From: Magnetococcales bacterium WMHbin3
GTDB taxonomy: Bacteria; Pseudomonadota; Magnetococcia; Magnetococcales; Magnetaquicoccaceae
Length of the DNA: 41,946 nt
NCBI GenBank assembly: GCA_002753185.1
Contig: PDZX01000034.1
Span: 1-41,946 of the forward strand
Reading direction: 5' to 3'
Shown: one piece after another, positions 17,974-33,373 of the stretch
Layout of the letters: each line of letters starts with the position of its first letter
Position numbering within the stretch: position 1 is the first letter of the stretch
Made by a program: the position numbers and the translations under genes
The notes under the pieces: generated by a model
Told to the model about the DNA's origin: nothing
Database searches by the model: none
The model's input: only the letters and a program-made list of their open reading frames with translations

Positions 17974-18001
17974 TTGACAATCAATTGATCGGGTGTATGG
18001 T
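17974..18001 (+). promoter_or_regulatory. Promoter of the giant repeat protein, probably giving a leaderless mRNA
   Basis: TTGACA (17974-17979), a 16-bp spacer and TATGGT (17996-18001). The expected transcription start, 6-8 bases downstream, falls at or next to the ATG at 18008, and no Shine-Dalgarno sequence precedes that ATG. The message is therefore probably leaderless if this start is right. Confidence 0.5.
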
Positions 18002-18007
18002 ATACGC

Positions 18008-21000
18008 ATGCCTGACAACGCGCCCGATAACCCTCTCCAGGAGGGCGTCTCCCCGCCACCCGACGCCGTCAGCGCCTCGGACGTGGAAGCCCTACTGCGC
18101 GCCCTCGGCAGCGGGGCGGAGGTGGACGGGACCCTGGCCAAACTCCTGAACGTCCACAACGACAAGGCCTCGGCCCTCGGCGTTCCCGCCGACGGGCAGA
18201 ACGAGGCGATCGGTCGCTTCAAGGCGATCCTGCTGGGGGAACTGGGCAGCGGGGATGCGCCGCAACAGGTTTATCTCAATGCCGTCAAGGCCTACTGGGC
18301 GCGCATCCAGTTGGCGATGAACCCCGTGCAGCAGGATAACGAGGTGACGCGCCTGCTCTCCACCCTGGCCGGGGAGAAGTCGATTGCCAACGTGCAGGCC
18401 ATCCTGAAGACCATCCAGCCGCCGGAGGAGAATCAATCCCACCCCCAGGCCGCCCAGATTTTCTTGCAGAATTTCGTCAACTCCCTGGAAACCGGCGTCA
18501 ATACGCATGGCGCGGTCCAAACCGCCGCCAGTCGGCTGCCGCCGGTTGCGGACACGGAGCACCCCCCCTCCACCCCCATGGATCTTTTCGCCGCCGGGCT
18601 GCCGGAAGGTCGGACTGTGACGCAATTGTTCGCCGATCGGCTGGACAAGGGTGGCGCGGTCGCCTTTCAGAATGCCTTGTTGAACAATCTGGAACGGGGA
18701 GACGGCTTCAACGCGGCGATCCGGCAGGCGACCGCCACCGCGCATGAGACCGTATCGCGGGCCGCCGGGTTGCAAGGGCCGGTTCCGCAACAGATGGCGT
18801 TTCTGAATGCCTTGGCCACCGGTGATGGGGTGGACGCGCTGGCGGGGGGCCATTTCGCCACCGCCTTGCTGACGGCCCTGGCCGAGAAGGGCGACGTTCG
18901 TGCCGCCCAGGCGAGTGCGGCCAACGCGGTGGCGGCGCGGAGCGCGGCGGCGGCGGTCGATACCGGGGTGGCCTCGCCGATGGGGGCGCTGTTGGCTGCC
19001 ATGGCCAGCGGGGAGAATGTGCAGGGGGCGGTGAACGGCGTGCCCGGCCTGAATGGCGCGGCGGGGGCGCTTTTGTTCCAGAGCGTGCTCGCCGACGCCT
19101 TGGGCAGTGGCGTCACGCCATTGCTGGCCATGCAAAACGCCTCGTCGAGCGTGCAGGCCGTGGCGTCGCTGGGATCCGTCCTGCAACAGCCCGCCAACTC
19201 CGAGGCCGCGATGCTGATGGCGGCCATGGCCAGCGGCCAGAACATCGCCCAGGCGGTGGCCAATCTGCCAGCCGGCAAGGGGTTCGCCGAAACCCTGGGC
19301 GAGACCATCCAGAACGGCGGTTCCGTGGCGGAGGCCATGCACGAAGCCAACCAGGTGTTGCAGACCATCGCCGAGACCATCGACAACGTGCAGACCAACC
19401 TGGCGGATCCGACCCTGCTGGCCATGGCCACCGGTCAGAACGTGCAATACATCCAAAGCCTGACGGATGTTTCTCCACTTGGCGGCATCGTCCCCAATCC
19501 CGCGCCCGCCAACGATCCCCCCGTGGACAACCGGGAGAACAGAGTGGATCCGGTGGTGCCGGCACCTCCACCGCCGCCTCCGCCACCACCGCCTCCGTCA
19601 CCACCACCGCCGCCACCACCGCCACCACCGCCAGCCCCGGCGCCCGTGCCTCCCGCTCCCCCCGTCACAACGACAACGACCGTGACGGAAAGCCCGCCCG
19701 TGGTGACCACCATCACCACCGTGACGACACCCAACCTCGCTCCCAGCGATATTCTCCTCTCTAATCGCTCGGTGACGGAAAACCTCTCTGGAGCCACCAT
19801 TGGCGAGTTGTCGATCAGCGACGCCGACTCCCCGTCGGGAGGGGTGTTGACCCTGGTCAACGATGCCGGGCTGTTCGAGTTGTCCGGGACTACCTTGCGG
19901 TTCAAGACCGGTGTCGCCGCCGATTTCGAGACGGCCGCTTCTCACGGGGTGCGGATCAAGGCCACCGACAGCGCCGGGGCCTCCCTGGAGAAGGATTTTA
20001 CCATTTCCATCCTCGATGCCAACGATGCCCCGACCGTCACCAACCTCTCGACGGGGGAGATCTTTGCCGAGGACGCCGCCGCCTTCGCCTTGCAACCGAT
20101 CGTCATCACCGATCCCGACGCCAATGCCTCGCTCACCGTTCAGTTGACCGTGAGCGATGCCCAGGCTGGCAAGATCGTGTTCGGGAATGCCAGTGGGGTT
20201 TCCATGACCTCTTCCTCCGGGGCATGGACGCTGCAGGGAGCGGTGGCGGCGCTCAACGGCGCGTTGGCCTCGGCGAGTTTCGTCCCCATGGCCGACTGGG
20301 ACCGGAATTTTTCCATTTCCACCTCGGTGAGCGATGGGGTCGCGTCCGCCCTGACCGGCAGCAAGAGCGTCACGGTCACCCCGGTCAACGACAAGCCCAC
20401 CGGCAGCGTGGCCATCGCCGGAACCGCCACCCAGGGGGAGACCCTCACCGCCTCCCATACCCTGGTCGATGTGGAGGGGCTGGGCGCCATCGCCTGGCAG
20501 TGGTTCGCGAACGGTACCGACATTTCGGGCGCCACCGCTTCCACCCTGGTTCTGGCCGAGGCGCAGGTGGGGAAGGCCATCACCGTCAAGGCCAGTTACA
20601 CCGATGGCCGCGCCACCGGGGAGGACGTTACCAGCCAGCAGGCCACCGGCGCGGTGGTCAACGTCAACGACCCCCGCACCGGCGACATCGTCATCACCGG
20701 CGTGGCCACCCAGAACCAGACCCTGACCGCCTCCAACACCTTCGCCGACATCGATGGTCTGGGCACGATCACCTATCAGTGGTATGCCGACGGCACCCCC
20801 ATTGATGGCGCTACCGCTTCCACCCTCGCGCTCGGCCAGGGGCAGGTCAGCCGCGCGATTACCGTGCGGGGCAGCTATACCGACGGCCATGGCACGGCGG
20901 AAGACAAAACCAGCGCCGCCACCAGCACGGTAGCCAACGTCAACGACTCGCCCACCGGTTCCGTCTCCATCGCGGGAACGGCGGAACAGAATCGAACCCT

Positions 21001-24000
21001 GACCGCCTCCAACACCCTGGCCGATCTCGACGGCCTGGGCGACATCACCTACCAGTGGTTGGCGGATGGAACGGAGATCGGCGGCGCGACCGGAGAGACC
21101 ATGACCTTGACCGAAAGCCATGTGGGCAAGGTCATCACCGTGGTCGCCAGTTACACCGACACCTTCGGCGCGCACGAAAGCCCCGCCAGTTCCGCGACCG
21201 TGGCGGTGGCAAATGTCAACGACGCGCCCACCGGCTCCGTCACCATTTCCGGCCGCAACGTCCAGGATCAGACCCTGACGGCTGCCAACACCCTGGACGA
21301 TATCGACGGGTTGGGCGCCATCTCCTATCAATGGCAGGCCAATGGCGTGGACATTTCCGGCGCCACCGGGGTTACGTTCACCTTGATGCAGGCTCAGGTC
21401 GGCCAGACCATCCGCGTCAAGGCGGGCTACCAGGACGGCCATGGCACCCTGGAGAGCGTGCCCAGCGCCGACTTCGGCACGGTGCTCAACGTGAACGACC
21501 CGCCCTCCGGCGAGGTCGTCATCACGGGCGACGCCACGCAAAACCAGGCCCTGGGCGTGGATTCCTCCACCCTGGTGGACGATGACGGGTTGGGCGCCCT
21601 GGACGTTCAATGGTTTGCCAACGACGTTGCCATCACTGGCGCGACCGGCTCCACCCTGACCCTGGCCGAGGCCCAGGTCGGCAAGACCATCAAGGTCACG
21701 GTCAGCTATACCGATCCACTCGGCGGCAATGAGAGCATGACCAGCACCGCCACCAGTACGGTGGTCAACGTCAACGATGCCCTGACGGGCAGCGTCACCA
21801 TCTCTGGAACCGTGACCCAGAACCAGACCCTGACCGCAGTCACCTCCGGCCTGAGCGACGCCGATGGCCTGGGGAGTTTTTCCTATCAATGGCTGGCAAA
21901 TGGCGCCGACATCCAGGGCGCGACCAATGTGACCTTCGCGTTGACCGAGGCCCAGGTCGGCAAGGTCATCGCGGTGCGGGTCGCCTACACCGATGGCCAT
22001 GGCACCCCGGAGAGCCTCCCCAGCGCGTCAACCACCGCCGTGGCCAATGTCAACGACACCCCTACCGGCCAGGTGACCATCGCGGGGACATTCGAGCAGG
22101 GGAGAACGCTAATTGCGAGCCACAACCTCTCCGATCCGGATGGGGGACCCAATGGGGTCACCTGGCAATGGCAGGCCAATGGCGTGGCCATCCAGGGCGC
22201 CACCAGCGACACCTTCTCGTTGACCGAGGCGCAGGTGGGCAAGACGATCACGGTGGTGGCCAGCTATGCCGACGGCCATAACACCGGGGAAAACATCTCC
22301 AGCGCCACTTCCCAGGCCGTGGCCAATGTCAACGACGCCATGACCGGCACCGTGACCCTGCCGGCCTCCCCGTCCCAGGGAAATACCTTGACCGCCGATA
22401 CCTCCGGCCTGGCGGATCCGGATGGTCTGGGCATCTTTTCCTATCAGTGGATGGCGGATGGCGCGAACATCTCCGGGACCACCGGCAGTTCCCTGATCTT
22501 GGGGCAGGCGCAAGTCGACAAGGCCATCTCGGTGCGCGTCACCCAGACCGACAGCCACGGCACCACCGAAAACGTGATCAGCACCGCGACGAATAAGGTC
22601 GCCAATGTCGATGACGCCCCCACCGGATCCGTGACCATTTCCGGAACCCCGGTCGTGGGCGGCACCTTGACCGCCGCCAATACCCTGGCCGACGCGGACG
22701 GCTTGGGGTCAATCGCCTATCAGTGGAAGGCGAATGGCGCGGTCGTTGGATCCGGTTCCTCCCTGACCCTGACTTCCTCGGATTTGGGAAAAACCATCAC
22801 CGTCACCGCCAGTTATACCGATGGATTCGGTCACGGGGAAAGCGTGGTCAGCAATCCGACAACCGCGATCATCAACAATCACCCCCCGACCGGCAGCGTC
22901 ACCATTGCGGGTCCGTCCTATGTGGGCAATACGCTGACCGCTTTCAACACCTTGAGCGACACCGATGGCATGGGGTCCGTCACCTATCAATGGTATGCGG
23001 ATGGCAGTTCCGTCGGCTCCGGAGGTTCTCTGCTCCTCACCCAGGCCATGGTGGGAAATCGCATTACCGTCACGGCCAACTATCTTGATGGACTCAATTT
23101 TCAGGAGAGTGTCCCCAGCGCGGCAACCGATCTGGTCCGCACTTTGCCGGGTGGCGATATCCCAGGCAACATCAATACGCCATGGCAAATTTCTCCTGGT
23201 CAAACCAGGAGTAGCTCTATAGACCAAAGTTATGATCTGGATTGGTTTTCCGTGGTCCTGAAGGCTGGAAATTCCTATTCGTTCGATATGACAGGCAATT
23301 CAGTTTGGAGTGGCGGTTTGAGCGATCCTTATTTACATCTTTATAATTCATCAGGTAATCAGATCGCCTATAATGATGATTATTATGGATTAAATTCTCA
23401 TCTTAATTACACTCCTAGCACAAGTGGAACTTATTTTATTGGTGCGGGCGCTTATTGGATATATACTGGTAGTTACAATCTCTCCGTCACTTGTAATTCG
23501 GGTGATCCCCTGGTGCTGGATCTCGATGGCGACGGCGTCCGGCTCCTCTCCATGGAGAGTGGCGTGCGCTTCGACATGAACAACGACGGCAGGCCGGAAA
23601 CCACCGGATGGATTGCGCCCGGAGACGGGCTGCTGGTGATGGATGCCAATCACGACGGCGATATCGCGGGCATCGGGGAACTCGTTTCCGAATATTCGAC
23701 GCCAGGGAGCCAATCCAGCCTGCAATCCCTGGCCACCCTGGACGCGAACCGCGATGGCCGGGTGGACGCGAGCGACCCCGCTTTCGCCGGGTTGCAGGTG
23801 TGGGAGGACGCCAACCAGGATGCCGGTTCCCAATCCGGCGAACTGCACGGCTTGCCGGATCTGGGGATTCTGTCGCTGGAACTGCAAACCACCAGCTCCA
23901 ATATCGAGGAGAACGCCGGCAACCTCATCACCGCCGTGGCCACCTTCACCCGTGTCGATGGCACGCAGGGGCAAATGAACGAAGTGGCGTTTCGTTTTGG

Positions 24001-24181
24001 CGATCCGGACAATGCCACCCGCATCGACCTGACCGCCCCATCATCCGAAGCGCCTTCCCATGCCGAGCTGATCCTGGGCAAGGAGGGCATCCTTGTGGAT
24101 CTTCCGCCCCCACCGGTCGAATTTTCGTATTCGGATGGCATCGATCCCGTGCCGACGCAGCACGCGGATGGCATCGCCTGA
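18008..24181 (+). CDS. Giant repeat-rich secreted adhesin-like protein (2057 aa), candidate type I secretion substrate
   Basis: No signal peptide. Residues about 30-490 are Ala/Gly-rich helical segments with a recurring hhAhASGxNVxxAV motif (MASGENVQGAV, MASGQNIAQAV, MATGQNVQYI). Residues 518-550 are a proline-rich rod, then Thr/Val-rich sequence. A cadherin-like domain (about 577-675) ends in LDANDAP, and a second beta domain follows (676-795). Ten tandem repeats of about 92 residues (796-1711) come next. Residues about 1712-1833 resemble a PPC-type beta domain (DLDWFSVVLKAG). The end carries Ca-binding-like loops (DLDGDGV, DMNNDGRPETTGW, DANHDGDI, DANRDGRVD), a module common near the C-termini of type I-secreted adhesins. 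It converges on a type I secretion operon. No RTX nonapeptide array is seen. Substrate status is inference. Confidence 0.85.
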   Translation: MPDNAPDNPLQEGVSPPPDAVSASDVEALLRALGSGAEVDGTLAKLLNVHNDKASALGVPADGQNEAIGRFKAILLGELGSGDAPQQVYLNAVKAYWARIQLAMNPVQQDNEVTRLLSTLAGEKSIANVQAILKTIQPPEENQSHPQAAQIFLQNFVNSLETGVNTHGAVQTAASRLPPVADTEHPPSTPMDLFAAGLPEGRTVTQLFADRLDKGGAVAFQNALLNNLERGDGFNAAIRQATATAHETVSRAAGLQGPVPQQMAFLNALATGDGVDALAGGHFATALLTALAEKGDVRAAQASAANAVAARSAAAAVDTGVASPMGALLAAMASGENVQGAVNGVPGLNGAAGALLFQSVLADALGSGVTPLLAMQNASSSVQAVASLGSVLQQPANSEAAMLMAAMASGQNIAQAVANLPAGKGFAETLGETIQNGGSVAEAMHEANQVLQTIAETIDNVQTNLADPTLLAMATGQNVQYIQSLTDVSPLGGIVPNPAPANDPPVDNRENRVDPVVPAPPPPPPPPPPPSPPPPPPPPPPPAPAPVPPAPPVTTTTTVTESPPVVTTITTVTTPNLAPSDILLSNRSVTENLSGATIGELSISDADSPSGGVLTLVNDAGLFELSGTTLRFKTGVAADFETAASHGVRIKATDSAGASLEKDFTISILDANDAPTVTNLSTGEIFAEDAAAFALQPIVITDPDANASLTVQLTVSDAQAGKIVFGNASGVSMTSSSGAWTLQGAVAALNGALASASFVPMADWDRNFSISTSVSDGVASALTGSKSVTVTPVNDKPTGSVAIAGTATQGETLTASHTLVDVEGLGAIAWQWFANGTDISGATASTLVLAEAQVGKAITVKASYTDGRATGEDVTSQQATGAVVNVNDPRTGDIVITGVATQNQTLTASNTFADIDGLGTITYQWYADGTPIDGATASTLALGQGQVSRAITVRGSYTDGHGTAEDKTSAATSTVANVNDSPTGSVSIAGTAEQNRTLTASNTLADLDGLGDITYQWLADGTEIGGATGETMTLTESHVGKVITVVASYTDTFGAHESPASSATVAVANVNDAPTGSVTISGRNVQDQTLTAANTLDDIDGLGAISYQWQANGVDISGATGVTFTLMQAQVGQTIRVKAGYQDGHGTLESVPSADFGTVLNVNDPPSGEVVITGDATQNQALGVDSSTLVDDDGLGALDVQWFANDVAITGATGSTLTLAEAQVGKTIKVTVSYTDPLGGNESMTSTATSTVVNVNDALTGSVTISGTVTQNQTLTAVTSGLSDADGLGSFSYQWLANGADIQGATNVTFALTEAQVGKVIAVRVAYTDGHGTPESLPSASTTAVANVNDTPTGQVTIAGTFEQGRTLIASHNLSDPDGGPNGVTWQWQANGVAIQGATSDTFSLTEAQVGKTITVVASYADGHNTGENISSATSQAVANVNDAMTGTVTLPASPSQGNTLTADTSGLADPDGLGIFSYQWMADGANISGTTGSSLILGQAQVDKAISVRVTQTDSHGTTENVISTATNKVANVDDAPTGSVTISGTPVVGGTLTAANTLADADGLGSIAYQWKANGAVVGSGSSLTLTSSDLGKTITVTASYTDGFGHGESVVSNPTTAIINNHPPTGSVTIAGPSYVGNTLTAFNTLSDTDGMGSVTYQWYADGSSVGSGGSLLLTQAMVGNRITVTANYLDGLNFQESVPSAATDLVRTLPGGDIPGNINTPWQISPGQTRSSSIDQSYDLDWFSVVLKAGNSYSFDMTGNSVWSGGLSDPYLHLYNSSGNQIAYNDDYYGLNSHLNYTPSTSGTYFIGAGAYWIYTGSYNLSVTCNSGDPLVLDLDGDGVRLLSMESGVRFDMNNDGRPETTGWIAPGDGLLVMDANHDGDIAGIGELVSEYSTPGSQSSLQSLATLDANRDGRVDASDPAFAGLQVWEDANQDAGSQSGELHGLPDLGILSLELQTTSSNIEENAGNLITAVATFTRVDGTQGQMNEVAFRFGDPDNATRIDLTAPSSEAPSHAELILGKEGILVDLPPPPVEFSYSDGIDPVPTQHADGIA
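20392..23140 (+). repeat. Ten tandem about 276-bp repeats encoding Ig-like/VCBS-like domains
   Basis: Ten in-frame units of about 92 codons, each with PTGSVxIxGxxxQxxTLTA, a DxDGLG, YQWxANGxxIxGAT, an EAQVGKxIxV, YTDGHGT and an ending VANVND. Units 9 and 10 are the most divergent and shorter (VGSGSS in place of IxGATxST), and they lack the VNVND end. The DNA-level repetition also produces long meaningless reading frames on the opposite strand. Confidence 0.9.
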
Positions 24182-24189
24182 GAGCGCTG

Positions 24190-25482
24190 CTAGGCCCGGC
24201 AGGGATTGCGTCCCTCGGCAAGCTGGGCCAGTGCGTCGCCATGCAGCCAGAGCGGCGCGGCGTGGGCATCGAACATCTCCACCATCTCCAGCATCTTCAT
24301 GTCGTATTCCCGCCGTCCGATCTTGACCGGATCCAGATTGCCGGTCTCGTCCCGTTGCAGGTGGACCAGTTGGATCATCTTCATTTTGTTCAGGTACAGG
24401 GCGAAGGAGTGGTCGGTGGGGCCGTAGCCGTGCCGGTAGACCACCTCGCCCACCAGGTCGCGCAGGCGGCAGGCCGACGAATAGCGGTTCTCCCGCTTGT
24501 ACTCCAGCATGGTCATGACGATCTCGGACAGCTCCTGGTTGATCCCCTTGGCAATGCGGTGCGGCGGGACCAGCGGGCGCTTCTGGTAGTCGGCGATCAC
24601 CGAGGCCACCTCCTGGTTGGGCAGTTGGGTCAGTCCGGCAATCCGGTTGGGATTGATTCCTGTGAGCAACTGGTACATGATCACCCCCAGACTGTAAAAA
24701 TCCACCGTGAAATCGGCGATGTCGTGCTCGATCAATTCCGGGGCCATGTAGGCGGGCTTGCCCAGGAAATACCCCTTGGCGATCTTGGCGCGCATCTCCG
24801 CCAGGGTGGAGGCGATGCCGAAATCCGAGATTTTGATCAGCCCCAGTTGTCCGTTGATCAGGATGTTGCCGGGCGAAAGATCCAGGTGGGCGATGCCGTG
24901 GGAGCCGTCCGAAAAGCGGTAGGTGTGGGCGTGGTGCAGGGCATTGGCCACCTTGAAGAGCAGAAACCCGATGAATTCGTTGGGGATCATCAGCGCCCGA
25001 CCGGCCAGCAGGTGGCGGGTGTCGATCCGGTGCAGGGCCAGCAACTCCTTGAGGTCGAACCCCCGGACATACTCCATGACGAAATAGAGTTCTCCGCCCG
25101 CATCCCCATCCGACTCCATGATGTCCGCGCCGCGAAAGCCGACGATATTGGGATGACCGTTCAATTCGGCGATGATGGAGGCCTCCTGGAGAAAGCGGTC
25201 GCGTACCTCCTTGCGGTCTTCGGGATCGGCGATGGCCAGGTCGTTGCGGATCTTCTTGAGGGCCACCACCTCGGAGGTGCCCAGGTTGCTCATCAGGCGC
25301 GCCTTGTAGACTTCGCCCATCCCGCCGACGCCGATCTTTTCGAGAAGTTCATAGGTGATCGAGGATTGAATTTTGCGACCGGTGAGCACCGTCTTCCCTT
25401 CGTCCTCGCGGGCGGCGATGGAACGCAGCACCGGTTTTGGCGAGGGGACCGTCTCCTGCAAGGCCTCTTCCTGGTTCATCAT
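24190..25482 (-). CDS. Ser/Thr protein kinase (Hanks type)
   Basis: 430 residues with no TM helix visible, so probably cytoplasmic. The kinase domain covers about 44-340: glycine loop GVGGMGEVYKA (51-61), ATP lysine in VALKK (about 76), Glu in FLQEASII (100), hinge FVMEYV, catalytic HLDLSPGN (199-206), DFG (220-222) and APE (247-249). The catalytic Asp and Asn are present, but the loop has Leu for the usual Arg (a non-RD kinase) and Ser for the usual Lys. After the kinase comes a helical C-terminal part of about 90 residues (SFALYLNKMKMIQLVHL). It is last in the operon behind hlyD and the TerB-like gene and ends 8 bp from the convergent giant gene. Likely targets are co-encoded proteins, which is inference. 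Confidence 0.9.
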   Translation of the reverse strand: MMNQEEALQETVPSPKPVLRSIAAREDEGKTVLTGRKIQSSITYELLEKIGVGGMGEVYKARLMSNLGTSEVVALKKIRNDLAIADPEDRKEVRDRFLQEASIIAELNGHPNIVGFRGADIMESDGDAGGELYFVMEYVRGFDLKELLALHRIDTRHLLAGRALMIPNEFIGFLLFKVANALHHAHTYRFSDGSHGIAHLDLSPGNILINGQLGLIKISDFGIASTLAEMRAKIAKGYFLGKPAYMAPELIEHDIADFTVDFYSLGVIMYQLLTGINPNRIAGLTQLPNQEVASVIADYQKRPLVPPHRIAKGINQELSEIVMTMLEYKRENRYSSACRLRDLVGEVVYRHGYGPTDHSFALYLNKMKMIQLVHLQRDETGNLDPVKIGRREYDMKMLEMVEMFDAHAAPLWLHGDALAQLAEGRNPCRA

Positions 25483-25501: not shown

Positions 25502-25981
25502 TCAGAGGTTGATCGCCAGAATCAGCCCGAGACGGAATTTCACGCTCATGGGGATCTCCTTGGCGGTGGCCTGGATATGCTCCAGCAGGGCGATCTCGTT
25601 GGCATCGTATTGCGAGTCCCGTTCGATCATCTGGATCAGCCAGTGGGCCTCGGCCTCGTCCACGATGCCGGACGACACGTCGTCGTTGAGCAGGTGCAGG
25701 GTGATCGCCTCGATGAAGAACGCCTTCCATTTCTCGTCGTTGCGCTTGCCCATGGTGGCTTCGTTCAGTTCGAACAGAATCTCGATCTCTGCCCGCTTGA
25801 CCGCATGGGAGGTCTTGGGACGGGTGGAGAGGATCATCCTGCGCATGATATCCACCTCGTGGTCGTCGATCACCCTGTCCACCAGAATCAAATCCCGGAT
25901 GGCATGCAACCGCTCCAGGTCCACCTCACCGGCATGGATTTGGGCATTGGCCAGTTTTGCCAGTTCACTCGTTTCCGTCAT
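25502..25981 (-). CDS. TerB-like helical protein of unknown function
   Basis: 159 residues, all helical and acidic, no signal or TM segment. The N-terminal part LHAIRDLILVDRVIDDHEVDIM and the second part WKAFFIEAITLHLLNDDVSSG-IVDEAEAHWLI each have the acidic helix-turn-helix look of TerB-type tellurite-resistance-like domains. I recall the second block from widely distributed uncharacterised proteins. AGGAGA lies 5 bp upstream of the ATG. It lies 51 bp after hlyD and 19 bp before the kinase gene, so it is probably co-expressed with them; a scaffold or kinase partner is possible. The function is not known. Confidence 0.65.
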   Translation of the reverse strand: MTETSELAKLANAQIHAGEVDLERLHAIRDLILVDRVIDDHEVDIMRRMILSTRPKTSHAVKRAEIEILFELNEATMGKRNDEKWKAFFIEAITLHLLNDDVSSGIVDEAEAHWLIQMIERDSQYDANEIALLEHIQATAKEIPMSVKFRLGLILAINL

Positions 25982-26032: not shown

Positions 26033-27316
26033 TTACCGTTCGCGCATGGCATTGTCCATGGACCTTCGCAGCGGTCCCACCAGGGCCTCCAGGATGGTGC
26101 GGCTGCCGGTCACGATGGCGCAGCGCACCCGCATGCCCGGCAACAAGGGATGACGCACCATCCGTCGGCTGGAAAAAAAATGGTCCCGATCGGGTCGTAT
26201 CCGCGCCAGGTAGTAGGGGATGCCCTTCTTGTCCACCAGCGAGTCCGGACTGACGTGGATCACCGTGCCGGTCAGGGTGTCGAAGGTGGCGCTGCCCGGC
26301 CCCTCCAGACGGATGAGCGCCTTTTGTCCGGCCAGCACGAAACCGATCTCCTGGATGGGCAGTTGCGCCTGGATCACCAGGGGATCGTCGCTGGGCACCA
26401 GTTCCAGCACCGTGCCTCCCGGCGGGATCACCTCGCCGACGGTATGCACGAAGACGTTTTTGACCACCCCTGCCACCGGCGCGCGCAACACCGTGCGCCG
26501 CAAGGCGTCCTCCAGCCGGTCCCGGCGGTGGCGCAACTCCTGGAGCGCGCCGGTCACCGAGGCCAACTCCTTGCCCGCCTCCTCCAGGAAACCGGTTCGC
26601 AGGGCGGCCAGACGTTTTTCTCCCTCGCGCAAGGCGGCCTGCAAACGGGCTTGTCTGGCCTCGTTTTCGGCGATGATGCTGCGGGTGCGGGCGGCGTCCT
26701 TGAGATACTCCATGTGCTTCATCCGATTGGAGAGGTCTTTTTGCAGCAACTGCTCGCTGATGGCGATCTGTTCGTTGAGATGTTTCAACAATTCCCGGCC
26801 TCCCTGGGCCTGTGCCCTGGCTTCCTGGATCTCCTGTTCGCGCTGGGTGTTCACTTCCCTCTGGATGGCGCGCTGTTCCCGCAAACGCTTCTGGCGCGTC
26901 TCGAAATAGGCGCGCATTTCGGCGACTTCGGTGGGGGCCTGGCGGGTCAGTTCGTCCGGGGGGTCCGGCGGCGCGGTCTCCTCGGTGTCCGGCAGGGCGG
27001 TTTCGGCCCGCAACCGGATCGCCTGAATGGTCAGCGAAACGATGTGCGCCCGCAACTCCTCGTAGTCGGCCTCACTGCGCACCGGTTCCAGGATGACCAG
27101 TTCCTGTCCTTCCCGAACCGTCTCCCCTTCCCGGACCCGCACCTCCCGGACGATCCCCCCTTCCAGGTGCTGCAGGTTCTTCACCTGGCTGGAGGGGATC
27201 ACCTCGCCCACCGCCAGGCTGACGACATCGATGGACCCCACCACGGCCCAGACGCCGAAGGCGATCACCCCGGCCAGGCAGAGGGCCAGGAACAGATGCG
27301 TGCCCCGTTCCCTCAT
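26033..27316 (-). CDS. Type I secretion membrane-fusion protein (HlyD/LapC type)
   Basis: 427 residues. A single N-terminal TM (about 8-27, FLALCLAGVIAFGVWAVVG), then the lipoyl half-motif QHLEGGIVREVRVREGETV, a long coiled coil (about 135-290), and the second half RAPVAGVVKNVFVHTVGEVIPPG. The C-terminal beta-barrel ends with LLPGMRVRCAIVTGSRTILEALVGPL, the HlyD-family signature. It links the inner-membrane ABC protein to TolC across the periplasm. ATGA overlap with the ABC gene (27313-27316). Family assignment is secure. Confidence 0.94.
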   Translation of the reverse strand: MRERGTHLFLALCLAGVIAFGVWAVVGSIDVVSLAVGEVIPSSQVKNLQHLEGGIVREVRVREGETVREGQELVILEPVRSEADYEELRAHIVSLTIQAIRLRAETALPDTEETAPPDPPDELTRQAPTEVAEMRAYFETRQKRLREQRAIQREVNTQREQEIQEARAQAQGGRELLKHLNEQIAISEQLLQKDLSNRMKHMEYLKDAARTRSIIAENEARQARLQAALREGEKRLAALRTGFLEEAGKELASVTGALQELRHRRDRLEDALRRTVLRAPVAGVVKNVFVHTVGEVIPPGGTVLELVPSDDPLVIQAQLPIQEIGFVLAGQKALIRLEGPGSATFDTLTGTVIHVSPDSLVDKKGIPYYLARIRPDRDHFFSSRRMVRHPLLPGMRVRCAIVTGSRTILEALVGPLRRSMDNAMRER

Positions 27317-28980
27317 GCGGGCCGCGCCTCCGGCGGACGCCGGATCAGGGTGGGGGTGGGCCGGGTGTTGAGATCCAGCAGCAGGGTGGCCGCCCGCAAC
27401 AACACCGGGTCATTGGTGAAGACAATGACCGTCGCCCCGCGCAGGGAGAGCTTGCGCAACACGGCATAGACGGTCATCTCCCCCTTGTGGTCGAGTTCCT
27501 CGGTGGGTTCGTCGAAGATCGCCAGGTTGCCCCTGGAGGTCAGGGCGCGGGCCAGAGCGAGCCGCTTGCGCAATCCTGGCGTCAGTCCGGTGTGTCCGTC
27601 GTTCACGGGGGTGTTGAGTCCTTGCGGGGATTCGTCCAGCCAGGGACCCAGTCCCGCGTCGGCGATGGCGATTTGCAACGTTTCCACCGGCAGTTCCGGA
27701 TCGAAACGGGTGAGGTTTTCCCGCAGGGTGCCATCGACGAACTCCGGGTCCTTGGGCAGCAGGATCAACTGGCGGCGCCACCAGGCCGGATCCAGTTGCC
27801 GCACATCCACGCCGTCGGCGAGGATCTGGCCACGATCCGGTTCGATCATGCCGGCGATCATCCCGGCCAGCACGCTCTTGCCCGTCCCGTCGTCCCCGGT
27901 GACCACCAGCACCGACCCCGGCGCGAGGGTCAGGCTGAGGGACTCGAACAGCGGAATCGGCGTGGAGGGCAGGCTCTTGGCCAGATCCCGGAACTCCACT
28001 CCGCCCTGGTAGTGACGCAGGGTCGCCCCGGAACCCGGCTCCACCGGCAGCCGGGAAAAGGCCTCCAGACGCGCCAGCGCCGCTTCCGCGCGCAGCATCG
28101 ATTCGGTCAGTCCCACCACGCGCAGGATCGGTCCCATGGCGCGGGAGGCCAGGATGTTGGCGCCGATCAGGGTGCCCACCTGCAGCTCGCCGGCCACCGC
28201 CAGCACCGCCCCGACCGCGATGATGGCCACCGACATCGTGGCTTGCAGCATCCCCTGCACCCCCTGGAAAAGACCCTGCCGGGCCTCCAGGTGGCGATGC
28301 CATCCGGCCCCTTCCGCTTCCAGTTCCAGCCAGCGTTGCATGGTCGCCCGCGTGGCCCCGAACAGACGGATGGTCTTGGCGCGGGCGCTGGCGGTGGTGA
28401 CCAGGGACTCCTTGCGCAGATTGATCTCCCCCAGGCGCCGCAGCGGCTGGCGGGTCAGACGGCTGGCGGCGAATCCGGCAAGCAGCGACAGCATCATGAA
28501 TCCGCTGGCGATCAACCCCAACGGCAGGCTCAACAGCAACAGCGTGATGATGTACAGCAAGGAAAACGGCAGATCCAGCACCGCGACCAGATTGGGCGCC
28601 GAGTAGGCGGAGTGGATGGTCCGCAACCCCCGCAGCGTCTCGGAACGCCGGGCCGCAGACCAGTCGGGCCGGTCCTCGCCCCTGGCCGTGGTCAGAATCC
28701 CCATGGCCCCGGCGTTCAATGCCCGGTCCCGTTCCGTCCCGATGGTCAACGCCAGCCGCAGCCGGGCCTGGCGGAAACCCCATTCCAGGATGATGGCCAC
28801 CGTCACCCCGACGGTCAGGGTGGCCAGGGTGGCATCCACCCCGCTGGTCACGTAACGGTCCAGAACCTGGGAAACGAACAGCGGCGACGCCAGGGCGAGC
28901 AGATTGGCGCACAGGGAGGCCAGAATCATCTCCAGGGCCAGCCAGGGATGGGCCGCGAGCCGCCGGATCAGCTCCTTCAC
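27313..28980 (-). CDS. Type I secretion ABC transporter with degraded nucleotide-binding motifs
   Basis: 555 residues: a transmembrane domain (about 1-300) and ATPase domain (about 325-540). It has no N-terminal C39-like domain. Walker A GDDGTGKS (362-369) and Walker B LAIFDEP (486-492) are present. The Q-loop position reads LLPKDPE (Lys 410 instead of Gln), the signature reads LTPGLRKRL (466-474) instead of LSGGQ, and the switch reads VFTNDP (Asn 523 instead of His). In a homodimer both sites would be affected. GTG at 28980 overlaps the tolC stop (GTGA) and the frame is open far upstream without similarity, so this start is well supported. It may need a second ABC subunit encoded elsewhere, or work with weak ATPase activity (inference). 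Confidence 0.9.
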   Translation of the reverse strand: MKELIRRLAAHPWLALEMILASLCANLLALASPLFVSQVLDRYVTSGVDATLATLTVGVTVAIILEWGFRQARLRLALTIGTERDRALNAGAMGILTTARGEDRPDWSAARRSETLRGLRTIHSAYSAPNLVAVLDLPFSLLYIITLLLLSLPLGLIASGFMMLSLLAGFAASRLTRQPLRRLGEINLRKESLVTTASARAKTIRLFGATRATMQRWLELEAEGAGWHRHLEARQGLFQGVQGMLQATMSVAIIAVGAVLAVAGELQVGTLIGANILASRAMGPILRVVGLTESMLRAEAALARLEAFSRLPVEPGSGATLRHYQGGVEFRDLAKSLPSTPIPLFESLSLTLAPGSVLVVTGDDGTGKSVLAGMIAGMIEPDRGQILADGVDVRQLDPAWWRRQLILLPKDPEFVDGTLRENLTRFDPELPVETLQIAIADAGLGPWLDESPQGLNTPVNDGHTGLTPGLRKRLALARALTSRGNLAIFDEPTEELDHKGEMTVYAVLRKLSLRGATVIVFTNDPVLLRAATLLLDLNTRPTPTLIRRPPEARPA

Positions 28981-30311
28981 GGTGTCCCCCCGGTCTCGGC
29001 GAGCAGTTCCAGGCTGAGTTGGCCGGTGCTCTTGAGCAGCGCGATCATGCCGATCACCACATCGACGCGGGCCGCCGCCGCGTCGCTTTGGGCATTGATC
29101 AGCGAGGTCTCCCCGGAGAGGATGTCCAGCAGGGAACGGGTGCCCAGCTTGCGCTCCTGGCGGGCCAGTTCCAGAAAACCGGAGGAGATCTCCGCCTGCC
29201 GGGCGAGGGTCACGGCAATGGCCCTGAGGGTGATCAGATCCTGCCAGGCGTTGCGCACCTCCTCCTCGGTCTGATGGACCGTTTCGTTGAGTTGCTGCTC
29301 GGCGGCGGTCACCTCGTTGCGTTCGGCGCTCACTGCGTCGATGGCGGTCAGGCCCAGATTGAACGGCATGTTCAGCTTGATCCCCGCCTTGGAGTCGTTC
29401 TTGCGTCCCTCGGTCCCGTCCATGTTGTTCTGCCACTTGTGGTCCATCTCGATGGTCAGACTGGGGAAATAGTTCTTGGCGCGGGTCTGCCGCAACTCCT
29501 CGCGGGCGATGCTCAGGTCGAAGCGGGCAGCCCGTGTGTCGGGATGGTTCTCCACGGCCAGCCGCAACGCCTCGTCCAGATCTTCCGGCAGGTTTCCCGC
29601 AAGCGCGCTCTCCACCCCTGCCACCGGCGGGATCTCCTCCGGGGGTTGCCCAAACAGCTTGATGTATTCGTTGTGCGTCTTGATCAGGGCGCCCTCGGCG
29701 CGGATGCGCCGCGTCTGGGCGGCGGCGTATTGCGCGTTGGCCTGCAACAGGTCCGTGGCCAGGCCCGCGCCGGCGGTGATGAGATTCTTTTCCATCTCCG
29801 CCTGTTCGTGGATGTTGTTTTCGGCCTTTTTGGCCAACTCGAGGACCTCGATGTTTTTTGCCACGTTCAATATCGCGCGGGCGCCGTCCAGAAGCAGCTT
29901 GAGGGTGGCCCCCTCATGGGCGGCGCGGGCCTTCTCCCATTGCTCGATGGTCTTGCGCACCTTGCCGTTGGTCTTGCCGAAATCCCACAGCCGCTGGGTC
30001 AGCTTGATGTCCCACTCCTGGTATTGCAGACTGTTGTCGCTGGTCCCCTCCTTGAACTGACGCTGCCCGCCGGTGGTGGCGTTCAGTTCCAGGCCGGGCA
30101 GCCACTCCCCCCAGGTCTCCCGCACCCGCAGCCGGGCGGCTTCCAGTTTGGCCGCGCTTTTATGAATCCGTTCGTTGCGGTCGGTCAGGTCCCGCAGCAG
30201 CCGTGCCATCAGGGAGTCGTCCCCTTGCGGGATTTCCGCCGGCCAGGCCGGGGCGTGCCATGCCAGAAAAACCAGCAGCGCCAGCCCCGCGATGTTACGC
30301 ATTGCCGCCAT
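28977..30311 (-). CDS. tolC: TolC-family outer-membrane efflux/secretion protein
   Basis: 444 residues. Signal peptide MRNIAGLALLVFLAWHAPAWPA, then two long coiled-coil/beta repeats of the OEP type: TWGEWLPGLELNATTGGQ in the first half, ARQERKLGTRSLLDILSGETSLINAQSDAAAARVDVVIGMIALL in the second. The family wording LGTRSLLDIL and TDLLQANAQYAAAQ is clear. The start may be 30311 or the ATG at 30302 that gives the cleaner signal peptide; both overlap the stop of the channel gene. It forms the outer-membrane exit duct of the type I system with the next two genes. Confidence 0.93.
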   Translation of the reverse strand: MAAMRNIAGLALLVFLAWHAPAWPAEIPQGDDSLMARLLRDLTDRNERIHKSAAKLEAARLRVRETWGEWLPGLELNATTGGQRQFKEGTSDNSLQYQEWDIKLTQRLWDFGKTNGKVRKTIEQWEKARAAHEGATLKLLLDGARAILNVAKNIEVLELAKKAENNIHEQAEMEKNLITAGAGLATDLLQANAQYAAAQTRRIRAEGALIKTHNEYIKLFGQPPEEIPPVAGVESALAGNLPEDLDEALRLAVENHPDTRAARFDLSIAREELRQTRAKNYFPSLTIEMDHKWQNNMDGTEGRKNDSKAGIKLNMPFNLGLTAIDAVSAERNEVTAAEQQLNETVHQTEEEVRNAWQDLITLRAIAVTLARQAEISSGFLELARQERKLGTRSLLDILSGETSLINAQSDAAAARVDVVIGMIALLKSTGQLSLELLAETGGTP

Positions 30312-33300
30312 CTGCGGGTTTGTCCTTGGCCGACTCGTCCTCCTGTTTGTCTACCTCTTTCTCCTCCTTGCCGGCGCCATCTTCTTCCTCGGCCCCCTCC
30401 CCGGAGGGCATGCCCGCCGTCAGGAGTGCCGGGTTGACCGGCATGTCGTCGTCCGGGATCAGGGAGATCCCCTGTTGCCGGAAAACCCGCCAGATCGATT
30501 CCCAGATATCCGCAATCAACTCCTTGCGCAGCGCGTGGTCGGCGATCCAGAACTCGGCCTCGTACTTGGCCACCCAGCGTCCCAGGAGATTGATGACCCC
30601 GTGAAATTCGCTCTGGGGCGGTGCGCCTTCCGGATGTTCGTGGCGCAGCAGGGCCTCCTCCAGCAGGGCGCGGATGTGGCCGGGGTCGTGGGCGGGCGAG
30701 ACATGCACGGCCAGGCCGACTTTCTCCACCGCCTCGGCGCTGTAGTTGACCACCAGCATCTCGGTGGCCTTGGCGTTGGGCAGGCTCAGTTGCAGACCGT
30801 CGCGCGTGCGCAGACGCATGGTGCGCCAGGTGATGTCGATCAGTTTGGCATCCTCGTGGGCACCGATCTTCAGCCAGTCGCCGATGGAAAACGGGCGCTC
30901 CACGTTGACGGCGATCCCGGAAAAGATGTTGGCGATGTTGGCCTGGACCGCCAAACCGATGATCATGGTGATCAGACCACTGGTGGCCAGCAGGCTGGTC
31001 AGCTTTTCGTCGAAGACGAAGGCCGTGACGCCGAATCCGGCCAGCAGATAGACCAGAAAGGCGGCGATGTTGCGGACCACGTTGGGGATCGGCTGGTGGG
31101 CGCGCCGCTCCAGGGGATCCCAGAGAAACCGCTCCAGGGCCATGGTGGCCAGCATGGCCGGGATGAGCCACCAGAGAATCCGGTAGGCCAGCATGAAATG
31201 GTCTGTGAAGTGCAACGGCATGTTCTGGAAGGAGTAATCCAGGAAGATGTTGCCGAAGGCGACCAGGAACAGCGGCCAGAACAGCACCCGCAACCCCCAG
31301 GAGGCCACTTTCCAGAAGGCCCCCTGGGTGTTGATGTCGATGCCCAGGGCGAAGATCAGGCCGATGAGGCCGCAAATGCCGAGATAGATGAAATATTCAT
31401 AGGGCACGAAGTCCCTGGCGGCGAACTCCCCCCTGCTGATGATGACGCCCATGTCGATGCGGGAGAACTCCGGTTCCATGGTGCCGTAGCCAACATAGGC
31501 CGGCTTGCCCAGGGTGCTGGTCAGGGTGCGTTCCTGGGCGAGCCAGGCGCGATCCATTTTCCAGCCCGTGGTGGGGCTGAGGATTTGTGGTGTGTTCACC
31601 AGTTCGAGGAAGGTCTTGCCGGATTGCAGCCCGATGCCCAGAATGTCCACCACGAACAGGACGTTGTTGCGATTCAGGGTTTTGTGGCGGAAGGAGGTTC
31701 CGATCACATGGCTGCCGTAGGGACGTTTGGTGTCGAGAAAGTCGGAGGAGAACTTGCCCTTGACCTTGAACAGCTTGAAGGAAATGTCGTCCTTGATCAG
31801 GGTTTCCACCGGCTCCTCGAGTGCGATGGTTTCGGCGGCGTTGGTGAACTCGATGGTCTCCGGATGGAACGACCCCCGGTAGCGGAACCAGATGAGGAAC
31901 TCCATGGAGAAGGTGTTCTCCTTGAAATCCAGCTCCTTGATTTCCGTCACTTCCATGCCGGTATAGACCACGTTGGTCTTGTACATGAAGCGGTCGTTGA
32001 CGAAGAGCATCCGGCCCTGTTGCAACTCTTCCAGGTAGTTGGTCGTGCCGCTGCGCTGGATCGCCTCCTTGATGGGATGGAGTTGGGTGAGGGCGGAGAT
32101 CAGGTTGTCGCCGTCGTAGCGGCCCATCTGGATAGGTTTGGACTCGCGGCCCGGCTGGTCGAAGAGGGCGCCGTCCACGATGCCGGGGGTCTGGGAGGTG
32201 ACGAAGTTCTGGAACGATGTGGCGGCCATGTGGATTTTGCGCCGGTCGAGGTCGGCGTTCGCCTCGCCGTCGGGGGACCAGGATGCGGCCAGATGGTTGA
32301 GCAGGGTGGTGAGGGTGGCGTAGGTGTAGGCGGCGACCCAGTCGGGCGATTGCGCGCCGTAGCGGGAGGCGTACTGGTTCTTGAAGCGTTGCGCGCTTTC
32401 GTTGGCGGTGTCGAACAGCAGGGGGAGCGTGACCAGGAGTTGGTTGGTGTAATCGGCGGTGGAGGGCAACTCCCCCCGGATCGATTGCAGGGTCTTGAGG
32501 AAGGCGTGGGTGGCCAGGCCATCGGGCGCCACGGTGAGATTGCGCGCCTTGCGGTCCCTGGCCTTCTTGAGGAACAGCGCGGCATCCCGTGGTTGCAGGG
32601 CCAGGAACAGGGCGCTGCCGTCCTGGCTCTCCTTGATCTCCCTGGCGAAGCCGTCCAGGCGCGTCTCCCGGTCGGGAGCGTCGGCGGGCAGGAGGAGTTT
32701 CTTGTGGATCCTGGTGCCGAAGAGATTGTAGATCTTTTCGAAATGCTCCAGCAGCGTCCGTCCGTATGGGGTGTCGTCGTGGAGGATGGTGACGATCTTT
32801 TCGCCGATGACGTTGCGGGTGTAGTTGCCCAGGAATTGCGCCTGGCGTTCCAACGTGGGGGCCAGGCGGAAGAGCCAGTTGCGTTCCGCCTGGTCGCCGA
32901 GGTGCTCGGAGGAGAGGGAAACGAAGGGGATGCCCGCCTTTGCCACTTCCGGCGCCATGGCCGCGAGTTGGTTGGCGGACCAGTAGCCGAGGACGAGCGC
33001 CGCCCGGTTTTCACGGACGATCTCCCGCACGGCCTGGCGTGTGTTTTCGGGGGTATCGAATCCCTTGCGTTCTTCCACGATGATCCGCCGGCCCGGCATG
33101 CCCGATTGGTCGGTGAAATGGGCGACGGCCAGCTCGGCGGCATTGCGCATGGTGGTCGGGATGCCTTCCTGATCCGACCTGGCGTCGCTCCCGGTGACCA
33201 CGATATGAATCGGCGGCTGTTTGCTTTCGGCGGTCATCTGGCGGCGGGCCACGAAGGTGCCGATCAGGCTCAGCACGCAGATGATGCCGATAATGATCAA

Positions 33301-33321
33301 TAATTTGTTCGTGTTGCGCAT
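30295..33321 (-). CDS. Fusion channel: periplasmic-binding-protein domain + Cys-loop-receptor-like domain + MscS pore
   Basis: 1008 residues. A TM anchor (about 6-26) is followed by a type 1 periplasmic-binding fold (about 36-415): AAELAVAHFTDQSGMPGR, TRQAVREIV, LVLGYWSANQLAAMAPEVAK and AGIPFVSLSS, as in LivJ/amino-acid receptors. Residues about 430-640 match a pentameric ligand-gated channel extracellular domain: VVYTGMEVTEIKELDFKENT, FLIWFRYRG, then GKFSSDFLDTKRPYGSH and FSRIDMGVIISRG before the membrane. Membrane helices span about 642-800, followed by an MscS core (about 765-955): GLAVQANIANIFSGIAVNVE, PFSIGDWLKIG and LPNAKATEMLVVNYS. The tail is Lys/Glu-rich. ATG 33321 is chosen; GTG 33333 is possible. 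A ligand-gated or ligand-modulated channel is inference. It leads the type I secretion operon. Confidence 0.8.
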   Translation of the reverse strand: MRNTNKLLIIIGIICVLSLIGTFVARRQMTAESKQPPIHIVVTGSDARSDQEGIPTTMRNAAELAVAHFTDQSGMPGRRIIVEERKGFDTPENTRQAVREIVRENRAALVLGYWSANQLAAMAPEVAKAGIPFVSLSSEHLGDQAERNWLFRLAPTLERQAQFLGNYTRNVIGEKIVTILHDDTPYGRTLLEHFEKIYNLFGTRIHKKLLLPADAPDRETRLDGFAREIKESQDGSALFLALQPRDAALFLKKARDRKARNLTVAPDGLATHAFLKTLQSIRGELPSTADYTNQLLVTLPLLFDTANESAQRFKNQYASRYGAQSPDWVAAYTYATLTTLLNHLAASWSPDGEANADLDRRKIHMAATSFQNFVTSQTPGIVDGALFDQPGRESKPIQMGRYDGDNLISALTQLHPIKEAIQRSGTTNYLEELQQGRMLFVNDRFMYKTNVVYTGMEVTEIKELDFKENTFSMEFLIWFRYRGSFHPETIEFTNAAETIALEEPVETLIKDDISFKLFKVKGKFSSDFLDTKRPYGSHVIGTSFRHKTLNRNNVLFVVDILGIGLQSGKTFLELVNTPQILSPTTGWKMDRAWLAQERTLTSTLGKPAYVGYGTMEPEFSRIDMGVIISRGEFAARDFVPYEYFIYLGICGLIGLIFALGIDINTQGAFWKVASWGLRVLFWPLFLVAFGNIFLDYSFQNMPLHFTDHFMLAYRILWWLIPAMLATMALERFLWDPLERRAHQPIPNVVRNIAAFLVYLLAGFGVTAFVFDEKLTSLLATSGLITMIIGLAVQANIANIFSGIAVNVERPFSIGDWLKIGAHEDAKLIDITWRTMRLRTRDGLQLSLPNAKATEMLVVNYSAEAVEKVGLAVHVSPAHDPGHIRALLEEALLRHEHPEGAPPQSEFHGVINLLGRWVAKYEAEFWIADHALRKELIADIWESIWRVFRQQGISLIPDDDMPVNPALLTAGMPSGEGAEEEDGAGKEEKEVDKQEDESAKDKPADGGNA

Positions 33322-33373
33322 GCGGATTGCCACGCCATATGGGACGTCGGATATCTGTTGATAATGATATTAC

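Follow-up and report, generated by a model that had tools for sequence, protein, structure and literature searches.

In animals, fast synaptic signals are carried by pentameric ligand-gated ion channels (pLGICs). A central question about them is how the outer domain drives the pore. To our knowledge, the pLGIC extracellular domain has so far been known only over its own four-transmembrane-helix (4-TM) pore, or in soluble form as AChBP. Proteins combining a type I periplasmic-binding-protein (PBP-I) domain, a pLGIC domain and a 4-TM pore were described in 2004, and in the sections of that paper cited here the domain and 4-TM core are said to be preserved in bacterial receptors (Tasneem et al., PMC549065). 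Here we describe a protein, hereafter the channel protein, encoded in a window of 41,946 nucleotides (the whole stretch of DNA analysed) on contig PDZX01000034.1 of Magnetococcales bacterium WMHbin3, in which a periplasmic-binding domain and a pLGIC-related domain are, as judged by homology, joined to an MscS-type pore region. Sequence comparison establishes the domain order and the homologies and shows that the architecture is conserved as a whole; the interpretation of a three-part receptor-like channel is supported, and the protein probably opens or closes as a channel upon binding of a small solute in the periplasm.

The coding frame, 30295..33333(-), is open for 1012 codons from a GTG and for 1008 from the ATG at 33321; we adopt the ATG start (30295..33321(-), 1008 aa), the GTG at 33333 being also possible. 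A Pfam scan, counted from the GTG, places Peripla_BP_6 at residues 60-358 (E 7e-29) and MS_channel_2nd at 800-865 (E 1e-12; 796-861 in the numbering used otherwise), and assigns no family to the middle of the protein. Among PDB sequences, the best MscS chain scores E 8.8e-12, with MscS chains at about 1e-11, and the best binding-protein match 1.2e-6. The original prediction, made from the sequence alone, had read a fusion of all three parts in one polypeptide, with a periplasmic-binding fold at the N-terminus and MscS-type helices and a beta core behind the middle block; the single open frame, the Pfam and PDB matches and the recurrence of the architecture bear this out, and all four strings that it quoted (VTEIKELDFKENT, FLIWFRYRG, RPYGSH and FSRIDMGVIISRG) are present. 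At E<=0.1, Pfam gives no match in the channel protein to a cyclic-nucleotide-binding domain, nor to the PBP-II ligand domain or P-loop pore of ionotropic glutamate receptors.

Together, the Pfam and PDB matches, hydropathy and a full-length AlphaFold2 model (87 alignment rows, mean pLDDT 83.1, pTM 0.73) predict a topology with an anchored N-terminus, two periplasmic sensory domains and five membrane helices, which, starting from the periplasm, would place the cage in the cytoplasm. The predicted anchor helix, residues 3-30 (33232..33315(-); hydropathy peak 1-28), precedes the PBP-I domain, residues 36-416 (32074..33216(-)), which is a type I periplasmic binding protein (Peripla_BP_6) by both sequence and fold. 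The all-beta pLGIC-type extracellular domain follows at residues 437-633 (31423..32013(-)); within it, alignment shows that residues 532-541 (KRPYGSHVIG; 31699..31728(-)) correspond to the Pro/Cys loop. The five predicted membrane helices span residues 641-808 (30898..31401(-); 641-664, 668-700, 703-741, 747-769 and 774-808), the last being the MscS-type pore helix (30898..31002(-)), assigned by conservation and alignment to MscS; the MscS beta domain, residues 796-861 (30739..30936(-)), is succeeded by a low-confidence tail.

Homology across the pore helix and upper vestibule places the channel protein in the MscS superfamily, as that is defined in the cited part of PMC4560390. Among 167 aligned MscS-type proteins, A779, G782, G789, A791, G802 and N806 are invariant (167/167), and Met786 and Leu790 are kept in 151/167 and 160/167. 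The latter two align with residues of E. coli MscS that we take to be Leu105 and Leu109. A fold search with the full-length model returned a list filled by binding proteins, uninformative on the pore; the pore assignment relies on sequence. No four-helix M1-M4 pore was detected when the pore region was compared with two 4-TM profiles (hhalign E 0.12 and 0.35). Four relatives (P0195, P0209, L126 and L127) are four-part fusions, in which a cyclic-nucleotide-binding domain is added to the binding protein, pLGIC-type domain and MscS pore and through which they would also sense a cytoplasmic ligand.

The identification of the middle block as a pLGIC-type extracellular domain, likewise proposed in the original prediction, is supported through intermediates and fold, direct comparison with classical pLGICs being weak. 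A sequence-only chain connects it to pLGICs via a protein that carries the same domain (34% identity) and a pLGIC-type pore, and its profile scores lie far above those of shuffles. The channel protein aligns collinearly with the binding-protein pLGICs P0208 and L002, a sister protein with a pLGIC-type pore is encoded in the same genome, and the domain has the all-beta extracellular fold of pLGICs. PF02931 has no match in the genome carrying the channel gene, and this model would therefore miss the family. Separately, L121, L122 and L123 (its + frame) encode short proteins that combine a pLGIC-type domain with hydrophobic segments and lack a binding protein, and in which the loop reads RVPIE; the protein L123(-) matches GLIC, having been found only on a rescan of its stretch and so not counted as a genome-level match, and L125 has no PDB match at E<=0.01.

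In a single MAFFT alignment of 167 MscS-type and 41 4-TM-type proteins, the gating loop differs between the two pore types. In the cited portions of the pLGIC literature, the Pro-loop proline is the sole absolutely conserved residue of these channels (PMC4795631), and the acidic residue of the loop pairs with a base before the membrane, apparently universally (PMC549065). In 41 proteins with a binding protein and a 4-TM pore (P0121-P0159, P0208 and P0210; some partial), the loop reads [YF]-P-x-D-x-Q; its Pro, Asp and Gln are each present in 41/41. Among the MscS-type proteins, Pro is kept in 73/167, the Asp position is Gly in 161/167 and Asp in 2/167, and the preceding residue is Tyr in 156/167; the channel protein itself retains Pro534 and has Tyr-Gly where pLGICs have Phe-Asp, keeping the proline of the Pro loop without its acidic residue. 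The domains of P0208 and P0210 score nearest to the MscS type, yet their pLGIC motif is intact, indicating that the motif follows the pore and not overall likeness. P0208 also bears a second, C-terminal binding protein (SBP_bac_8) behind its binding protein, pLGIC domain and 4-TM pore. A quick, unrooted tree of the binding protein and domain, with the loop left out (59 rows, of which 11 are 4-TM and 48 MscS-type, the latter reduced from 159), separates the two types by a single branch; its SH-aLRT support, 90, falls short of the level that the program stars. Since a single branch divides the pore types, one exchange suffices, and the tree is consistent with one exchange of pore between the MscS-type group and binding-protein pLGICs.

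A whole-protein search scored 7993 candidates, of which 455 proteins reached E<=1e-3. Among the 120 matches listed, PF00924 is present in 120/120 and a binding-protein Pfam in 119/120, so that at least 119 relatives have both ends; the exception, P0105, is a 748-aa partial. The family survey that the original prediction had proposed thus finds the architecture recurring, in what is a family of proteins rather than a single accidental fusion. Relatives are encoded in 122 stretches of genome contigs, and the 80 loci kept come from Magnetococcales, Rhodospirillales, Azospirillum, Desulfamplus, Methylococcaceae and several betaproteobacteria. One MscS-type member, L094, lies in a cave metagenome record labelled Helicobacter cetorum, a label that may be wrong. 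The profile of the middle domain matches in 36/48 genomes of the class and in 40/398 of a phylum sample containing the same 48 (4/350 outside the class), a patchy distribution; it picks up 4-TM relatives too. Database names mostly follow one part, "mechanosensitive ion channel" or "ABC transporter substrate-binding protein"; one JGI name gives both binding protein and small-conductance channel, so automatic annotation has already seen the two ends together, though not the middle domain.

The foremost alternative, which we consider unlikely, is that the protein is an MscS channel gated by tension, in which the large periplasmic part does no more than tune threshold, conductance or place in the envelope and ligand binding is modulatory or lost. 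The strong conservation of the MscS pore helix and the five predicted helices, as many as in YnaI, speak for it. MscS subfamilies are moreover known to bear many extra domains (PMC4560390, part cited). However, the binding protein and pLGIC-type domain stay together in nearly all of the matches listed, across several classes, and the loop that in pLGICs contacts the pore is not the same in the two pore types, which suggests coupling.

The neighbourhood of the gene raises another possibility. Downstream, and overlapping the channel gene by 17 bases, lies a gene for a TolC-family outer-membrane protein (28977..30311(-)), with genes for a type I secretion ABC permease/ATPase (27313..28980(-), 555 aa; GTG at 28980 the probable start, frame open up to 29436) and a HlyD-family type I secretion adaptor (26033..27316(-); TIGR01843, 349.8 bits, over cut-off). 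All three secretion genes occur in 45/80 MscS-type loci, and where both flanks reach 5 kb or more the set is complete in 38/50. A recount without the low-complexity filter gives 37/49 MscS-type versus 0/12 4-TM-type loci (18 fetched, 6 with shorter flanks), with Fisher p 1.6e-6 on rows that are not independent, 16 being Azospirillum; without Azospirillum the 38/50 count becomes 22/34. One of the 12 4-TM-type loci, L144, has TolC and ABC. As the source genome holds seven HlyD genes over cut-off, we estimate a chance neighbourhood at about 2%. The set lies downstream in 18, upstream in 17 and otherwise in 3 of the 38 loci, a variability suggesting that the link has been rearranged or formed anew.

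A 2062-aa repeat protein (17993..24181(+)) is a likely substrate of the adjoining type I system. It contains ZirU-family repeats (166 bits, cut-off 100) and a PPC domain just over cut-off, and residues 1839-1999, its C-terminal self-processing module, match the FrpC structure 6sjw (E 3.6e-26), with GDPLVLDLDGDG at the Asp-Pro site; according to the part of PMC7078468 cited, FrpC-type modules respond to calcium by cleaving an Asp-Pro bond and forming a covalent link. A homologous module is found in the flanks of 20/80 MscS-type loci (16 Azospirillum, 4 others) and 0/18 4-TM-type loci, though the strict Asp-Pro-site pattern is matched in only 5/80. No Pfam family matches the antisense frames 19598-22000(-) and 18092-19456(-). 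A Ser/Thr kinase gene (24190-25482(-)) and a 159-aa gene (25502-25981(-)) come after the secretion genes; this pair recurs in 3/80 related loci (L027, L028 and L030), with flanks limited to 6 kb.

These associations, together with the tolC overlap, would suit an accessory of the type I secretion locus: a signal or the exported protein would bind to the periplasmic part, the pore would relieve or report export, and ligand gating would be secondary. We regard this as improbable: 12/49 loci are without the full set and its side varies, which makes a physical subunit role unlikely.

Several results weigh against our preferred reading of a solute-gated channel tied to secretion. The middle-domain profile has no match among PDB sequences, the best hit (E 0.22) being an unrelated regulator, and hhalign against six classical pLGIC domains yields a weak E of 0.012 over 36 columns, the best of 20 shuffles reaching 0.074; the pLGIC assignment consequently rests on intermediates and fold. 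The predicted model of the domain has a mean pLDDT of 75 and is poor at 138-143 and 180-189, and the Foldseek check called for by the original prediction gives top alignments, by Foldseek's own measure, with TM about 0.53 and a root mean square deviation near 10. As pLGICs are pentamers, with the ligand between subunits, and MscS channels are heptamers, many of them gated by tension, both modules cannot keep their known symmetry. The full secretion set is missing from 12/49 loci, all 3 betaproteobacterial ones included, and is complete in 1/4 Methylococcales loci. A middle block that is a common beta sandwich, resembling pLGICs by convergence or through the memory of the structure predictor, would explain the missing direct Pfam and PDB matches, but is very improbable, chance likeness being nearly refuted by the sequence chain and profile scores. 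That two genes were joined by a sequencing or assembly error, one refuting condition named in the original prediction, is refuted by relatives that share both ends in many assemblies, isolates included, and has practically no probability left.

Under the solute-gated reading, the modules are known by homology and all the steps of the motion are inferred. A solute, perhaps an amino-acid-like one, would close the binding-protein clamshell; the closed clamshell would twist the pLGIC-type domain, whose membrane-facing loops, which differ from those of pLGICs, would push the first helices of the MscS module; and the hydrophobic gate (Met786/Leu790) would shift and open. Because the channel genes travel with type I secretion operons, the resulting flux of ions or solutes may serve export or use of secreted proteins, here giant surface proteins. 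A bolder proposal, which we hold tentatively and at somewhat below even chances, is that pore exchange created a new natural class of ligand-gated channel, with the pLGIC domain as a transferable gating module, here over a seven-fold MscS pore and with its gating loop rewritten to suit that pore; such a channel would control how giant surface proteins secreted by type I systems are exported or used. Since one loop differs when the pore differs, a pLGIC domain on an unrelated pore and a 4-TM sister in the same genome could make the code of sensor-pore coupling readable by comparison. The question raised is how a domain found elsewhere in five-membered rings fits onto a pore that in other proteins is built of seven subunits. 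Ligand gating, beyond tension alone, is suggested as an input to MscS channels, and the type I secretion link offers a testable physiological role.

How does this architecture compare with known systems? The channel protein shares with the MscS superfamily (YnaI/MscS type) the pore helix and beta domain, and its predicted membrane helices number five, as in YnaI; it differs in the roughly 600 residues of binding protein and pLGIC-type domain ahead of the pore. Ionotropic glutamate receptors stack a PBP-I-type domain over a second sensory domain over the pore; the stacking is similar, while the second domain and pore are of other families, and the likeness is analogy only. In the channel literature, as titles and abstract starts among the matches listed, with preprints and most subscription papers outside the scope, an MscS pore with a pLGIC domain is not described; the consulted parts of PMC8584932 and PMC9221113 mention both channel kinds and name no such fusion. 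Jaiteh et al. 2016, in the portion cited, required a full-length match including the pore, set aside edge cases mixing pLGIC and unrelated fragments as possible assembly errors and did not mention MscS (PMC4795631); that rule would omit the MscS-type fusions described here. Some MscS relatives are named bacterial cyclic-nucleotide-gated (bCNG) channels (references 14, 29 and 30 in PMC4560390, part cited), and they too fuse an MscS pore to a ligand-binding module, a cyclic-nucleotide-binding domain at the C-terminus. Unlike theirs, the module of the channel protein is N-terminal and predicted to be periplasmic, and a cyclic-nucleotide domain is lacking, although four relatives have one. DeCLIC is a pLGIC that likewise has an additional periplasmic N-terminal domain (PMC12664993 and PMC9897478, parts cited); the lobes of this domain, however, are compared with regulatory domains other than PBP-I, and the pore is that of a pLGIC (PMC12664993). 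Closest are the prokaryotic PBP-I pLGICs (PMC549065, sections cited), which share the order of binding protein and pLGIC extracellular domain; in the channel protein, an MscS module with five predicted helices stands in place of the 4-TM pore, and where the gating loop of pLGICs has its acidic residue, 161/167 MscS-type proteins have Gly.
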